64,000 nt of DNA from Flavisolibacter ginsenosidimutans (GTDB taxonomy: Bacteria > Bacteroidota > Bacteroidia > Chitinophagales > Chitinophagaceae): positions 4,154,001 through 4,218,000 of the forward strand of contig NZ_CP042433.1 of assembly GCF_007970805.1 (NCBI RefSeq), written 5' to 3'. Below, piece by piece: positions 10,640 to 51,574 of the stretch (position 1 is the stretch's first letter; each line of letters begins with the position of its first letter). The translations under genes were made by a program, and so were the position numbers. Under the pieces are notes generated by a model, which worked only from the letters and a program-made list of their open reading frames with translations, was not told the origin of the DNA and made no database searches.

Positions 10640-10660
10640 TGAAGGGCAAAAGTCAAAATT

Positions 10661-10668
10661 CAAAAGTA
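10661..10668 (-). promoter_or_regulatory. -7 box of the yjjG-like gene
   Basis: TACTTTTG on the minus strand, 21 bases before the ATG. Confidence 0.45.
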
Positions 10669-10714
10669 AAAAGAAGACCAGTAAACTGTGGAGAAGTTTT
10701 AAATTTTGACTTTT

Positions 10715-13606: not shown

Positions 13607-14629
13607 ATGAAAGTTGCAGTCGTTGGTGCCACCGGTCTTGTGGGCACAAAAATGTTACAGGTTCTTGCCGAAAGAAATTTTCCTGTTGATGAACTCATTC
13701 CCGTTGCTTCCGAAAAATCGGTGGGCAAGGAGGTGGAGTTTAAAGGAAAAAAATACAAGGTCGTAAGTATGCAGGATGCCATTGCGCTGAAACCCGCCGT
13801 GGCTTTGTTTTCTGCCGGTGGCAGCACCTCGCTTGAGTGGGCGCCGAAATTTGCCGAAGCCGGCATTACGGTGATTGACAATTCTTCCGCCTGGCGCATG
13901 GACCCGGCAAAACCTTTGGTTGTTCCGGAAGTAAATGCGAACGTCTTATCTGCTGATGACAAGATCATTGCCAATCCAAATTGCTCGACTATTCAAATGG
14001 TAGTGGCGCTACAACCGCTGCACAAAAAATACGGCATCAAACGCGTGGTGGTTTCTACTTATCAAAGTGTAACCGGCACGGGCAAAAAAGCCGTTGACCA
14101 ATTGAACAACGAACGCGATGGCAAGGAAGGAGAGATGGCCTACAAGTATCCAATTGACTTGAACGTGATTCCGCAAATCGATGTCTTCCTCGACAACGGC
14201 TACACCAAAGAGGAAATGAAAATGGTGAATGAAACCAAAAAAATCATGGGCGATGATTCCATTCGCGTCACCTCAACCACCGTTCGCATTCCCGTTGTTG
14301 GTGGCCACAGCGAAAGCGTGAACATTGAGTTTGAGGCCGATTTCGATTTAGCCGAAGTAAAGCAACTCTTAAGCGAAGCACCCGGCATTGTTGTGCAAGA
14401 CGAACCTTCGCAACAACTTTATCCCATGCCTTTGTGGGCGCACGAAAAAGACGAAGTTTTTGTCGGAAGAATTCGCCGCGACGAAACACAACCCAACACG
14501 CTCAACATGTGGATCGTGAGCGACAACCTTCGCAAAGGCGCCGCTACCAACGCTGTGCAGATTGCAGAGTATTTGTTAGAGAAAGGCATTCTACAAAAAG
14601 AAGCGGAGTTGAGCGCAGCGATTAGTTGA
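13607..14629 (+). CDS. asd: Aspartate-semialdehyde dehydrogenase
   Basis: 340 residues from ATG 13607 (MKVAVVGATGLVGTKML). It reduces aspartyl phosphate to aspartate semialdehyde, the branch point to Lys/diaminopimelate, Thr and Met. The Rossmann GATGLVG motif is followed by the NPNCSTIQM active-site cysteine (~124), QSVTGTGKKAV, and RIPVVGGHSESV with the catalytic His. A longer frame reaching 13421 runs through the terminator and is rejected. The possible leader peptide and terminator upstream suggest amino-acid-responsive attenuation. Its TGA starts an octamer repeat tract. Confidence 0.95.
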   Translation: MKVAVVGATGLVGTKMLQVLAERNFPVDELIPVASEKSVGKEVEFKGKKYKVVSMQDAIALKPAVALFSAGGSTSLEWAPKFAEAGITVIDNSSAWRMDPAKPLVVPEVNANVLSADDKIIANPNCSTIQMVVALQPLHKKYGIKRVVVSTYQSVTGTGKKAVDQLNNERDGKEGEMAYKYPIDLNVIPQIDVFLDNGYTKEEMKMVNETKKIMGDDSIRVTSTTVRIPVVGGHSESVNIEFEADFDLAEVKQLLSEAPGIVVQDEPSQQLYPMPLWAHEKDEVFVGRIRRDETQPNTLNMWIVSDNLRKGAATNAVQIAEYLLEKGILQKEAELSAAIS

Positions 14630-14697
14630 ATGGTTGAACGGTTGATTGGTTGATTAGTAAGCAGCCTGCATTTCTAATCAACCAATCAACTAATCAA
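14627..14697. repeat. Octamer tracts forming a 17-bp hairpin between asd and an SDR gene
   Basis: Four consecutive octamers of form TGAnnnGT start exactly at the asd stop codon (14627-14658). Three octamers of the same family lie inverted at 14674-14697, the first containing the TAG stop of the convergent SDR. Bases 14641-14657 and 14674-14690 are perfectly complementary over 17 bp, so the structure probably also terminates both transcripts. Confidence 0.85.
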
Positions 14698-15526
14698 CAA
14701 ACACAGTGCTCACCGCAATGGCTTCATTCGCGTTCAGGTCTTCTTCTACCTGCTTCAACTTCATGCGAATGGCTTGCACCGGCGCTTTGCCCAGCGGCAA
14801 CCGCAGCGCTTTGTTCTCGCTGTACACGTAATCAACAATGGCCTTTGCTGCCTTCACAGGGTCGCCTTCCTGCTTGCCGTTCATGTCGTTCACGTACTTG
14901 TAAGTGTTGCCTACCGGCGAGCTTTGATAGGCTTCAATTTTTTGTGCGGCGGCTTTCATTGAACCGGCTAAAAACTCCGTGCGAAAAGGGCCCGGTTCAA
15001 CAATGGTTACTTTGATGCCAAACGGTGCAACTTCCAGTGCCAATGCTTCGCTGAAGCCTTCCAGTGCAAACTTGCTGGCGTTGTATAACCCAAAACCCGC
15101 ACCGGCTCTAAAGCCTGCCTGTGAAGAAATCTGCACAATGTGTCCCGATCCTTGTTGACGCATGATGGGCAGCGCGGCTTTCGTCATTGCAATCGCACCA
15201 AAGAAATTTGTTTCCATCTGTGCTCTTATCTCTTCCATCGAAAATTCTTCAATGGCGCCCAGCGTTCCGTAGCCGGCGTTGTTTACCAATACGTCTATTC
15301 GTCCAAATTTTTCAATTGTCTGCTGCAAGGCGGCAGGAACTTTTTCTGTTTGCGTCACATCCAGTACAACACCAATGCCCTTACCGCCGTGTTGTTGCGA
15401 GAATTCATTTGCCTGTTCTTCTTTGCGAAAAGTGGCGGCAAGCTTGTCGCCTTTTTCGATGATCGCTTTTGCCAGTTCTGCGCCAAAGCCGCTTGAGGCG
15501 CCCGTGATAAACCAAACCTTTGCCAT
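14690..15526 (-). CDS. SDR family oxidoreductase
   Basis: 278 residues. TGASSGFG binds the cofactor; VNNAGYGT (~85), SSQAG (~136) and YNASK (~152) complete the classical SDR set. The length and the FxxPxGIKVTIVEPGPFRTEF segment fit the retinol-dehydrogenase-like or 17-beta-hydroxysteroid-like SDRs often annotated as short-chain oxidoreductases in soil bacteria. The substrate is unknown. Its last codons and stop (GTT GAT TAG) lie within the octamer repeat, so the C-terminus is in part repeat-derived. Confidence 0.85.
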   Translation of the reverse strand: MAKVWFITGASSGFGAELAKAIIEKGDKLAATFRKEEQANEFSQQHGGKGIGVVLDVTQTEKVPAALQQTIEKFGRIDVLVNNAGYGTLGAIEEFSMEEIRAQMETNFFGAIAMTKAALPIMRQQGSGHIVQISSQAGFRAGAGFGLYNASKFALEGFSEALALEVAPFGIKVTIVEPGPFRTEFLAGSMKAAAQKIEAYQSSPVGNTYKYVNDMNGKQEGDPVKAAKAIVDYVYSENKALRLPLGKAPVQAIRMKLKQVEEDLNANEAIAVSTVFVD

Positions 15527-16296: not shown

Positions 16297-16428
16297 TGGC
16301 GTTTACGGTTTGTTGTTTGTGGTTGGGGTGTTTGTGCAAGATACCAACAGAGCGCAAACCTTTTCTGTTGAATCAAATCTTGAACAACAAAAGTTTGTTT
16401 GTAACTACAAACCACAAACCGTAAACCC
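16297..16428. repeat. Inverted heptamer tracts between DUF2461 and paaE
   Basis: GTTTACG, GTTTGTT and GTTTGTG units at 16297-16320 are mirrored by CTACAAACCACAAACC-type units at 16404-16428. The arms are near complementary and enclose about 80 bases with no gene. Confidence 0.65.
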
Positions 16429-23630: not shown

Positions 23631-23839
23631 AAATGAGGAGTCAGGAGTTAGAAGAGACTTACACCATCAGTCACCAAGCAAATAGCGTAACGCTTCACTT
23701 CTTAAATTTCGAATGGTCGGAACCAATTGAAATCCGCAGGAACTGTTTTAATAAACTATGAGAAGCAATCTCCAATGATTGTTTGATTTCCAGATACCAA
23801 ACTCCTGTCTCCTGTATTCTGTCTCCTGACTCCTCATTT
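23631..23839. repeat. Inverted heptamer tracts between GH3 and zwf
   Basis: On the minus strand the zwf stop codon opens TGAGGAG, TCAGGAG, ACAGAAT, ACAGGAG, ACAGGAG (23836 to 23802). Bases 23823-23839 are perfectly complementary to 23631-23647 over 17 bp. The ~150 bases between the arms show no gene. Confidence 0.8.
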
Positions 23840-25336
23840 CGGCAGCGTCGTCCAATTATATCCATCCCGGGCAATCAACGCTTCCGCGTCTTCAGGGCCC
23901 CAGGTGCCGGGTGTATAATTCGGAAAATCAACCGGCGGACGGGTTTGCCAGGCTTCCAGAATGGGTTGAATAATTTCCCAGGCTTTCTCCACCTGGTCGG
24001 CACGCATGAATAAGGTCGGGTTGCCTTCAATCACGTCTTCCAACAACGTTTCATAAGCTTCCGGCGCATTGTCGCCGTAAGCATCGGTGTAGCTAAACAC
24101 CATGTCTACTGGCTGCAGGATCATTTGCGGGCCGGGCTGTTTTGCCTGGAAGCGCAGGCGAATGTCCATCTGCGGCTGAATGGAAATAATCAGGCGGTTG
24201 GGCCGCCAGGTTTCGCCGGCTTCCGGTGGAAAGGCATAATCGGGTGCTGGCTTAAATTCAATCACAATCAGGCTGCTTTTTGATTGCATGGCTTTGCCGG
24301 TGCGCACAAAAAACGGGATGCCGCGCCAGCGCCAGTTGTCCACGTAAAATTTTACGGCCGCAAAGGTTTCGACGGGTGAGTTGGGAGCCACACCTTTTTC
24401 GTTGCGGTAGGCAATGATTTCCTTGCCGTGAATCCAACCTTCGCCGTACTGGCCGCGAACGGCATTCTTGTGCACCTCGTCTTTTCGCCAGCGGCGAATG
24501 GCTTTGAGTACATCGAGTTTTTTGTTGCGGATTTCGTCGGCGGCAAACGATACCGGCGCTTCCATGGCAATCATGCACACCAGTTGAAGAATGTGGTTCT
24601 GCACCATGTCGCGCAGGGCGCCGGCACCTTCGTAATACGAACCGCGGCTTTCAATGCCGATATCCTCGGCGGCGGTGATTTGCACGTGGTCAATGTAATT
24701 GCAATTCCAAAGCGGTTCAAACAGGGCATTGGCAAAACGGAGCGCCAAAATGTTTTGAACGGTTTCTTTTCCGAGGTAATGATCAATGCGGTAGATCTGC
24801 CGCTCTTCAAACATTTCGCCCAACTTGATGTTTAATGCTCTCGCACTTTCCAAATCGTGGCCGAAAGGTTTTTCAAACACCATGCGGCTGTGCGCTGCAT
24901 CGGCAGTAAGGCCGTGTTCGTAAAGCTTGGTGGCAATCATCGGCGCCAGTTGCGGCGCTACCGACATGTAAAACATCACAACGGCCTTTGCGTTCCATTC
25001 CTTTTCTTTCTCTGCAATCTTGTTGCTTATTTCCTGGTAAGTGTCGTCTTTTTCCAGGTCGGCTTTGATGTAATCAATGTGCGGCGAAAAAACTTTCCAC
25101 GTTTCATCCAATGCTTCTTTGCGCCGGCTGAACGAAGCAATGCCGCCTTTGAGATAATCAATGTATTGGTCTTCGCTGTACTCGCTGCGGCCGATGCCGT
25201 AGATGTAAAAATTATCGGGCAGGTATTTGTCTATGTAGAGATTGTATAGCGCCGGGACAAGCTTGCGGTAGGCGAGGTCGCCGCTGCCGCCGAAGATGAA
25301 GATGATGGTTGGTTCTCTCTTGGTTTCCGTGGTCAT
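23834..25336 (-). CDS. zwf: Glucose-6-phosphate 1-dehydrogenase
   Basis: 500 residues. It is the first step of the oxidative pentose phosphate pathway, making 6-phosphogluconolactone and NADPH. IFGGSGDLAYRKL is the coenzyme-binding GxxGDL motif. RIDHYLGKETVQN carries the substrate Lys and catalytic-site His, with EKPFGHDLESA before it. It lies downstream of gnd on the same strand, but a four-helix-bundle gene with flanking inverted repeats intervenes. No 6-phosphogluconolactonase gene (pgl) is adjacent. The TGA stop opens a heptamer tract. Confidence 0.96.
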   Translation of the reverse strand: MTTETKREPTIIFIFGGSGDLAYRKLVPALYNLYIDKYLPDNFYIYGIGRSEYSEDQYIDYLKGGIASFSRRKEALDETWKVFSPHIDYIKADLEKDDTYQEISNKIAEKEKEWNAKAVVMFYMSVAPQLAPMIATKLYEHGLTADAAHSRMVFEKPFGHDLESARALNIKLGEMFEERQIYRIDHYLGKETVQNILALRFANALFEPLWNCNYIDHVQITAAEDIGIESRGSYYEGAGALRDMVQNHILQLVCMIAMEAPVSFAADEIRNKKLDVLKAIRRWRKDEVHKNAVRGQYGEGWIHGKEIIAYRNEKGVAPNSPVETFAAVKFYVDNWRWRGIPFFVRTGKAMQSKSSLIVIEFKPAPDYAFPPEAGETWRPNRLIISIQPQMDIRLRFQAKQPGPQMILQPVDMVFSYTDAYGDNAPEAYETLLEDVIEGNPTLFMRADQVEKAWEIIQPILEAWQTRPPVDFPNYTPGTWGPEDAEALIARDGYNWTTLPK

Positions 25337-25347
25337 GCGTAGTGAGT

Positions 25348-25829
25348 TGACAGGTTGATAAGTTGATAGGTTGATAAATTAAAGCCGCCTAAAGCTTCCC
25401 TCGCAGATAAGTAATGTAGCCGTTCAGCAAGCGTTCAATTTCGTCATATTTCTGTTTGTGAAAAGACAGTTGGTCTTGTGTAATGTATTTGGCGTCGAAG
25501 GCATCAATTAAATGATTCAAGGTTTCGCTCAACGAGCCTCTGGCCTGAACGCAAAAGTGAAGCTGGTCTTTATAGGTAAAACGGCCATGTCCTTCGGCAA
25601 TGTTTGCATTGATAGAGCGTGCTGACCTGATGAGTTGATCGCTTAATCTGCGCTTCTCATCCAGTGGAAAAGTTTTTGCTAACGACTCCAATTCTTTTTT
25701 AAATTCTCTCGCCTTTTTCCAGACATCTAGGTCGGTAAAAGGTTGATGTGGTTTTTGCTCCATGTACAGAGTTTTGAAGTATGGTCAGCGTTGCATTACT
25801 TGTCAACTTATTAACCTATCAACTTATCA
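25348..25829. repeat. Inverted four-octamer tracts enclosing the four-helix-bundle gene
   Basis: Left arm: four octamers of form TGAnannT at 25348-25379, 11 bases before zwf in transcription order. Right arm: four octamers at 25798-25829 in the opposite sense, the first beginning exactly with the gnd stop codon. A 28-base core matches at about 26 positions. The enclosed ~420 bases are almost filled by the gene at 25389-25763. Confidence 0.8.
25389..25763 (-). CDS. Four-helix bundle protein (23S rRNA intervening-sequence protein family)
   Basis: 124 residues. FTDLDVWKKAREF, the opening helix, then SDQLIRSARSINANIAEGHGR and QARGSLSETLNHLIDA are hallmarks of the S23/IVP family. Its founders are encoded inside intervening sequences of 23S rRNA genes (Leptospira, Coxiella), and the fold resembles Avd of diversity-generating retroelements. 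No biochemical function is established. The basic central helix suggests nucleic acid binding. The gene splits gnd from zwf and is bounded by inverted octamer tracts. Confidence 0.88.
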   Translation of the reverse strand: MEQKPHQPFTDLDVWKKAREFKKELESLAKTFPLDEKRRLSDQLIRSARSINANIAEGHGRFTYKDQLHFCVQARGSLSETLNHLIDAFDAKYITQDQLSFHKQKYDEIERLLNGYITYLRGKL

Positions 25830-27254
25830 ACCGCCCTCGTGCCACTCCGTATGAAACACGCCTTCTTTGTCTATACGCTGATACGTGTGCGCACCAAAAA
25901 AATCACGCTGCGCTTGAATCAAATTTGTGGGAAGCCGTTCGCTGCAATAGGCGTCAAAATAAGCCAGCGCACTGCTCATGGCTGCTACCGGAATTCTTGC
26001 GTTGATGGTAAGCGAAATTATTCTTCGCAACGCCGCTTCTTTGCTTTTTAAAATTTCGGCAATGGTTGGGTGAAGCAAAACATTTTCCAACGTTGCATTA
26101 GCCGCAAAGGCTTTGTCAAACTGGTAAAGCAACGATGAACGAATGATGCAGCCGCCTTTCCAGATTTGCACCACATCGGGCAGCGGAATGTCAAACTTGT
26201 AATCAACCGATGCCTTCGCCAACAAGCTCAAGCCTTGTGCATAAGCAATCAGGAAGGTGAAGTACAAAGCATCTTCCAAATCCTGAATCAATTCTGCCGA
26301 AGGCGAATTTATTTTTCCAATTTCGGGCTGATAAAGCTTGCTGGCTTCAACGCGTTGATTTTTGTAAACCGAAAGGTCACGCAAGGCTACAGCCATATCT
26401 ATAGTTGGAATGGAAACCGGCAAATCCATCGCGTCTTGCGAGGTCCATTTGCCGGTGCCTTTCGAGCCTGCTTTGTCCAGAATGTGGTCAACGAGATAAT
26501 CGGTTCCGTCCTCGGTTTCCGTGTCCAGCGTGCGAAAAACTTCGGCGGTAATCTCAATCAAAAACGATTGCAAGCTGTCCGCGTTCCATTTTAAAAAAAT
26601 GGTGTGCAAATCATCGTTTGTATAACCGGCGCCGCGTTTCATCAAATCATAGGCTTCGCTGATTAACTGCATCATGGCGTATTCAATGCCGTTGTGCGTC
26701 ATCTTTACGTAATGGCCGGCGGGACCGTTTCCCATATAAGCCACACATGGCTTGCCGTCGGCTTTGGCGGCAATGGCTTCTAAAATTGGCTTCAAATATT
26801 GATACGCTTCCTTGTCACCGCCAGGCATCATGCTCGGGCCAAAGCGTGCACCGGCTTCGCCGCCCGACACGCCCATGCCGAAAAAGTGAATGCCTTTGGG
26901 TTGCAGGTAATCAACGCGTTTTTGCGTGTCTTTGTAATAGCTGTTGCCGCCGTCAATCACAATGTCATCTTTCTCCAAATGCGGAAGCAGGTTGTTGATC
27001 ACGTCGTCCACCGGCTTGCCTGCGGGCACAAGCATCATAATCTTTCGCGGCTTCTTTAAAGCCCTTACCATTTCTTCAACGTTGGTGGTGCCTTTTACGG
27101 TTGTGCCTTTGGTTGCCGAGGCTTCCAGTTTGTCGGCACGCTCCTGCTTTAAATCAAAGCCGATGGCGGCATAGCCTTTATCGGCCATGTTCAACAAAAG
27201 ATTGCTGCCCATTACGCCAATGCCGATCATCCCGAAATCAAATTGCGCTTCCAT
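25827..27254 (-). CDS. gnd: 6-phosphogluconate dehydrogenase, decarboxylating
   Basis: 475 residues. It converts 6-phosphogluconate to ribulose-5-phosphate with CO2 release. GIGVMGSNLLLNMADKG binds the coenzyme, GMGVSGGEAGARFGPSMMPGG and the KMTHNGIEYAMMQ lysine form the active site, and KGTGKWTSQDAMDL follows. The C-terminal GRIDKEGVFHTEW-like tail is present (QRIDKEGVFHTEW). The final Gly-Gly-stop (GGC GGT TGA) runs directly into an octamer tract, so the tract marks the gene end. It probably forms a pathway unit with zwf. Confidence 0.96.
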   Translation of the reverse strand: MEAQFDFGMIGIGVMGSNLLLNMADKGYAAIGFDLKQERADKLEASATKGTTVKGTTNVEEMVRALKKPRKIMMLVPAGKPVDDVINNLLPHLEKDDIVIDGGNSYYKDTQKRVDYLQPKGIHFFGMGVSGGEAGARFGPSMMPGGDKEAYQYLKPILEAIAAKADGKPCVAYMGNGPAGHYVKMTHNGIEYAMMQLISEAYDLMKRGAGYTNDDLHTIFLKWNADSLQSFLIEITAEVFRTLDTETEDGTDYLVDHILDKAGSKGTGKWTSQDAMDLPVSIPTIDMAVALRDLSVYKNQRVEASKLYQPEIGKINSPSAELIQDLEDALYFTFLIAYAQGLSLLAKASVDYKFDIPLPDVVQIWKGGCIIRSSLLYQFDKAFAANATLENVLLHPTIAEILKSKEAALRRIISLTINARIPVAAMSSALAYFDAYCSERLPTNLIQAQRDFFGAHTYQRIDKEGVFHTEWHEGG

Positions 27255-51479: not shown

Positions 51480-51574
51480 ACGTGAGACGTCAAACGTGAA
51501 ACGTGAGACAAGGGTTCACGCCGATCAAAAAGTCTTTACAGTTTCACGTTTATCGTCTCATCTCCCGTTCCTCA
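51480..51574. repeat. Inverted heptamer tracts upstream of the MerR gene
   Basis: Bases 51480-51509 are the near-perfect (29/30) reverse complement of 1036-1065. A second tract at 51541-51574, in opposite sense, ends on the TGA of the unknown gene at 51572 (units TGAGGAA, CGGGAGA, TGAGACG, ATAAACG on the minus strand). Confidence 0.8.

Follow-up and report, generated by a model that had tools for sequence, protein, structure and literature searches.

Inverted tracts of short repeated units around S23 genes: an element between gnd and zwf of Flavisolibacter ginsenosidimutans and its cargo-less relatives

The locus described here raises the question of why a gene for a four-helix-bundle protein of the S23 family (23S_rRNA_IVP) should lie between gnd and zwf, enclosed by inverted tracts of a repeated octamer, and in what way tracts and protein belong together. 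The window, by which we mean the whole stretch of 64,000 nt of Flavisolibacter ginsenosidimutans DNA that was analysed, holds the following features at this place, with gnd, the S23 gene and zwf all co-directional on the minus strand.

23834..25336, minus strand: zwf, the downstream neighbour, starting 8 nt past the left tract
25345..25377, plus strand: left tract, AGTTGACA GGTTGATA AGTTGATA GGTTGATA A, the arm adjoining the zwf start codon
25389..25763, minus strand: S23 / 23S_rRNA_IVP four-helix-bundle gene, 124 aa, assigned by profile matches
25798..25832, minus strand: right tract, in minus-strand reading GGTTGATA AGTTGATA GGTTAATA AGTTGACA AG
25827..27254, minus strand: gnd, the upstream neighbour, its 3' end overlapping the right tract's outer unit

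The S23-type identity of the gene, originally predicted from sequence alone, was borne out by matches to PF05635 (E 8.7e-33, 113.2 bits against a curated cut-off of 33.8) and TIGR02436 (E 9.5e-31, 106.2 bits against a curated cut-off of 24). As had been described, the gene is enclosed by tracts of about four octamers each, of GTTGAtA type and in inverted orientation. The core identity given as 26/28 has to be corrected, since the best ungapped arms (25353-25377 and 25808-25832, 430 nt apart) are complementary at 24/25 positions; shuffles of 464 kb from the same genome contained no inverted repeat with the score of these arms. The right end had further been placed precisely at the gnd stop codon. 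This stop codon (25827-25829) indeed lies inside the outermost octamer, which extends 3 nt into gnd, to 25832, and with zwf starting 8 nt past the other tract the element thus occupies the entire gnd–zwf spacer. S23 is the only open reading frame between the tracts, which hold no transposase of a known family, setting the element apart from insertion sequences and MITEs, and no Rfam family matched over the segment 24800-26400.

The closest relative of the window element is the 23S rRNA intervening sequence, which in Coxiella, Leptospira and others likewise consists of an S23 gene within inverted repeats forming a long stem. A stem of this kind is also seen here, the RNA fold of the window segment pairing arm with arm (z = -3.86 against shuffles). 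The common plan suspected beforehand therefore holds, and the Coxiella case turned out to be even closer, since its S23 end carries GACAGAT heptamers in tandem, inside a 28-bp terminal stem (PMC4990558). The window element differs from it in being located in a spacer between protein genes, not in rRNA, and the elements described here also differ in having many units and dispersed cargo-less relatives.

If the arrangement is general, other S23 genes should be flanked by inverted tracts, and they were found to be so in the same genome, in relatives, in other phyla and on cyanobacterial plasmids. The genome of F. ginsenosidimutans holds 14 S23 profile matches, corresponding to 13 genes of which several are broken (L001, L008, L011/L014). 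Inverted tracts flank nearly all of them, the exceptions being L012 (none) and L001 (unclear), with the units GGAGTTA, GTCCACA/GACAACG, GTTGATA, GGTTGGA, TGTTCAC, GTGAGAC (twice), GATGACG, AGAGTTA/TGAATTA, CCGGTTAAT and AATGTAA. Within a set of 127 S23 loci from relatives and the own genome, in which a tract was defined as a period of 7, 8 or 9 above the 95% shuffle level, 64 loci carry tracts on both flanks and 48 on one, about half of the set lacking a clear tract on at least one side. Complementarity exceeded that of 95% of swapped partners in 57/64 of the both-flank pairs, with no signal for tracts in direct orientation. On the 5' side, 105/116 arms are rich in G and poor in C, irrespective of gene strand. 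One relative shows an S23 gene between unusually long octamer arms (L119, GTGGAATA, >100 nt each).

The arrangement extends to many phyla: the best inverted repeat lies above the swapped 95% level at 62/80 S23 loci, in a set drawn from Chloroflexi, Bacteroidota, Campylobacterota, Acidobacteria, Planctomycetes, Verrucomicrobia, Clostridia, several proteobacterial classes and others. On cyanobacterial plasmids, 8/8 S23 loci lie in inverted tracts, for example AGGGAGT and CAGGGAA arrays, in survey results from which some gammaproteobacterial loci near contig ends, with misplaced flank windows, were left out. It should be noted that one such element (L357, plasmid pANA02 of Anabaena sp. 90, 886-1254), with CAGGTGA heptamer tracts, is located in a type I-D CRISPR operon, with cas6 and cas4 as its neighbours on either side.

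Inverted pairs without a gene, which had been noticed in other spacers and interpreted as possible cargo-less versions of one element, are real, and six of period 7 or 8 lie in the window, none with an assigned strand.

10648..10714, unstranded: cargo-less inverted heptamer hairpin, AAAAGTC units
14624..14699, unstranded: cargo-less inverted octamer hairpin whose arms span 14641-14690, GTTGATT units, the unit family matching the S23 tract of 25345-25832
16301..16426, unstranded: cargo-less inverted heptamer hairpin, GTTTGTG units
23631..23839, unstranded: cargo-less inverted heptamer hairpin, GAGTCAG units, a family in common with S23 locus L002
51483..51560, unstranded: cargo-less inverted heptamer hairpin, GTGAGAC/GTCAAAC units, a family in common with S23 loci L007 and L009
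61085..61164, unstranded: cargo-less inverted octamer hairpin, GATATTGG units

In 864 kb scanned of this genome, we observed 30 cargo-less hairpins of period 7 or 8 with a median loop of 39 nt, while the only periodic inverted repeat in shuffles of the same 864 kb was one of period 9. By extrapolation, about 175 such hairpins are present per genome, far more than S23 copies. Their units match the genome's own S23 tracts in 18/30 cases (similarity of at least 0.6), compared to a mean of 5.5 and a maximum of 14 for random foreign tract sets, and the mean similarity between hairpin units and own S23 tracts was reached by 0/2000 of these sets. The same genome thus carries cargo-less hairpins matching its S23 tracts. 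Unit families are common to both, as the interpretation as cargo-less versions would have it, but in place of one element there are many, and each has a unit of its own. Hairpins are less frequent in G015, a second genome, with 3 in 340 kb. Within the GTGAGAC family the loop sequence is also common between copies: dispersed hairpins (L088 at 14566, L087 at 15145, L091 at 3977, the window at 51483 and L093 at 11476) have the conserved loop AAAGTCTTTACGGTTTCACG and constitute a MITE-like repeat of this genome.

The unit of the tracts follows the protein. Over 58 elements, S23 identity correlates with tract similarity (Mantel r = 0.53, p < 0.0005, the best of 2000 permutations reaching 0.13), and the repeat period also tracks the S23 lineage. 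The S23 proteins closest to that of the window, 57-69% identical and found in other genera at sites without gnd or zwf, mostly have GTTGAnnn octamers, and a sub-branch near the window S23 (L102, L105) has 9-base AGTATATAA units.

A further case is provided by Xanthomonas, where Rehm and colleagues described dispersed, intergenic GGGAATC heptamers close to the upstream gene, mostly in four units, with 70 inverted pairs in X. campestris; these arrays were reported as G-quadruplex repeats, unexplained and without a tie to mobile elements or S23 (PMC4692102). The X. campestris S23 protein of solved structure is XCC0516 (PDB 2GSC), and before looking we recorded the prediction that XCC0516 orthologues would lie inside inverted GGGAATC tracts. 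A search of 234 genomes did not turn up XCC0516 itself, the best identity being 71%, so that relatives from its family were used. Inward GGGANTN units were found on both sides in 28/30 loci, whose S23 proteins are 62-71% identical to XCC0516; these 30 loci probably represent one old site rather than 30 insertions, since they have flanking genes in common. In six genomes of this family, dispersed arrays tend toward the variant of their own S23 tract (p = 0.057), a matching in trans which is no more than suggestive for these Xanthomonas-like genomes.

Taking these data together, we favour, with a probability of roughly two in three, a joint reading in which 25345-25832 is a copy of a hairpin-element family, its S23 protein reads the unit and cargo-less copies are served in trans. 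The gnd–zwf junction itself offers a comparison across species, and the search for an empty site that the original prediction had called for was successful: G001, G003, G005, G007 and G010 have short plain spacers there, with neither S23 gene nor tracts. In G006 and G014, the junction holds an S23 gene of the window lineage with octamers as in the window, while in G008, G009, G011, G015 and G016 it holds cargo-less hairpins with units other than that of the window element. Hairpins at this one spacer have different units per species (L050, L058, L060, L061, L067) and therefore turn over at a constant position. Presence and absence of the gene can also be compared elsewhere, a second such pair (G163 and G073) differing by about 430 bases that hold an S23 gene and its tracts. 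Target-site duplications are unreadable, since the spacers do not align base by base between species. S23 divergence at gnd–zwf (81% and 71%) parallels that of gnd (85% and 72%), and consequently the window copy may stem from an insertion that took place long ago and was followed by losses, independent S23 insertions being a possible alternative. Two further copies of one family in the own genome, L007 and L009, agree in tracts and gene and end where the tracts end; at a dS of about 1.8 this pair is old, and recent transposition within this genome was not seen.

The position of the hairpins allows a different explanation, namely a host regulatory system in which S23 is an RNA-binding regulator, hairpins at stop codons are mRNA sites for stability or termination, and the hairpin around the S23 gene itself serves autoregulation. 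The median distance from the start of an element's tract to the neighbouring stop codon is 0 nt, as expected for such sites, and the co-variation of unit and protein would suit a regulator as well. So would the strong purifying selection on S23, for which pN/pS in the window gene is 0.14-0.22 relative to its counterparts at this junction in G006 and G014, and heptamers upstream of genes have been proposed to be regulatory (PMC4679880). A regulon, however, would hardly employ a dozen different unit systems in one genome, the genes adjacent to hairpins differ among close relatives, hairpins turn over at a single junction as described above, and S23 copies are patchy and often broken, as at the loci named. 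We therefore consider this explanation unlikely, although it is the best placed of the alternatives to the hairpin-element reading.

Somewhat less probable still is an intervening-sequence model without recognition, in which the arms are an RNase III stem, S23 is a passenger and the link between unit and protein arises from joint inheritance. The plan in common with 23S rRNA intervening sequences, which are excised by RNase III (PMC4990558), speaks for it, as does the better-than-shuffled fold of the window element with its paired arms. Inner spacers inherited together with unit and protein are, however, randomised. In pairs of S23 identity of at least 60% and not from the same site, tract similarity is 0.66, whereas that of the inner spacer separating the gene from the tract, 0.22, is at background level. 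The same-site exclusion in this comparison covered the known gnd–zwf trio only, and a slightly raised outer-flank similarity suggests that a few more same-site pairs remain. Synonymous sites are saturated in S23 pairs at this identity. With tract unit and protein conserved, the spacer randomised and synonymous sites saturated, it follows that protein and unit have been maintained and the intervening DNA has not. These elements accordingly have a composite structure with a lineage-specific unit that is conserved beyond neutral drift. A mere stem would also leave it unexplained that the period tracks S23 lineage and that the two arms, apart from the unit they have in common, do not correspond unit by unit: mirror-order matching of the two arms was negative in a unit-order permutation (44 elements, p = 0.17). 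A strict palindrome kept by compensation was rejected on this lack of signal; arms without mirror-order matching fit two arrays of binding units better, within the limited power of the permutation.

S23 is not the sole cargo, since GxxExxY genes (PF13366, PDDEXK_3) also lie in inverted tracts, at 18/29 loci above the swapped-flank 95% level. They apparently form a second class of cargo that may have nuclease activity, and their units are often ACAGAGGC or ACAGATAAC. Individual loci in inverted 8- to 9-base tracts are L016 (own genome, 1816028-1816378), L392, L394, L405 and L418, with CACAGAGG and ACAGATAAC types. This second cargo, together with the excess of cargo-less hairpins over S23 copies, would be accounted for if another machine, such as a Y1/RAYT transposase, slippage or template switching in replication, spread the hairpins and S23 were cargo that landed in their loops. 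We rate this slightly below the passenger model, as random slippage would not yield lineage-specific units and unit identity tracks S23 lineage. The REP/RAYT system does resemble the present one in its dispersed hairpins, in one gene flanked by the same repeats and in autonomous and non-autonomous partners. It differs in that S23 is no Y1 transposase, the elements lack a GTAG tag, and 7- to 9-base tandem arrays replace the single palindrome. Only two Y1 genes occur in the own genome, both without these tracts, one of them a RAYT-like gene (L018, 4137598-4137942) with several flanking CCTTATTACCTTAGTAG repeats, which form a separate REP family; Y1/RAYT was accordingly rejected as an obvious driver. 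Avd, the accessory protein of diversity-generating retroelements, has a four-helix-bundle fold like S23, and neither a reverse transcriptase nor a template repeat lies near the S23 gene, unlike in such retroelements. The two reverse transcriptases of the own genome (L308 at 3492090 and L309 at 1782676) match retron St85 and Drt2 models best and are likely defence systems; reverse transcriptase was likewise dismissed as an obvious driver on these matches.

That the tracts are a chance or low-complexity artefact, for which one might cite the frequency of short two-copy repeats in spacers, is refuted beyond reasonable doubt by matched shuffles, which hold 0 inverted repeats of period 7/8 where the real sequence holds 15 to 30, and by swapped-arm nulls, exceeded in the 57 pairs counted above.

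Returning to the hairpin-element reading, we conclude that S23 genes are protein-coding members of a hairpin-element family that includes 23S rRNA intervening sequences as a special case. We propose a model in which the element is a single S23 gene within inverted tracts of a 7-, 8- or 9-base unit and what spreads is the hairpin. S23 probably recognises the repeated unit, and we infer a physical recognition, perhaps with one subunit per unit, which would take place on the hairpin of the element's RNA or single-stranded DNA. TRAP provides an analogy for a protein binding tandem units, and a pentameric S23 ring would similarly suit binding of four or five of them. The solved Xanthomonas S23 protein is such a pentameric ring (PMC4990558). 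Mobility would be driven by S23, which together with a host enzyme would place copies into short intergenic gaps beside stop codons. We know of no catalytic activity of S23, and the chemical step would come from another enzyme; among the Y1 genes and reverse transcriptases of the own genome no partner was identified. Cargo-less hairpins with the same unit would then be non-autonomous derivatives served in trans.

The cyanobacterial short tandemly repeated repetitive sequences and the TAACTGA repeats are intergenic degenerate heptamers, often in single direct arrays (PMC4679880). The elements described here are likewise intergenic degenerate arrays, of period 8 in the window copy and 7 in most relatives, and inverted arrays of such heptamers enclose S23 genes on plasmids of Nostoc, Calothrix and Anabaena, just as GGGANTN tracts surround relatives of the Xanthomonas S23. 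We found no link to S23 in the literature on cyanobacterial heptamer repeats, and nothing in open-licence literature connecting S23 with heptamer tracts outside rRNA. S23 hairpin elements are probably a widespread, apparently undescribed kind of mobile element. The most far-reaching form of the proposal, for which we see a little less than even odds, is that S23 proteins are sequence-specific readers of 7- to 9-base units with a lineage-specific code, driving hairpin spread unlike any known transposase, and the source of much heptamer repeat content and of 23S rRNA intervening sequences. It would offer a common explanation for S23 function, for the movement of 23S rRNA intervening sequences and for dispersed heptamer repeats, covering the cyanobacterial short tandem repeats, GGGAATC of Xanthomonas and perhaps TAACTGA. 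If the lineage-specific code is real, these elements would constitute a natural series of small proteins differing in nucleic-acid specificity.
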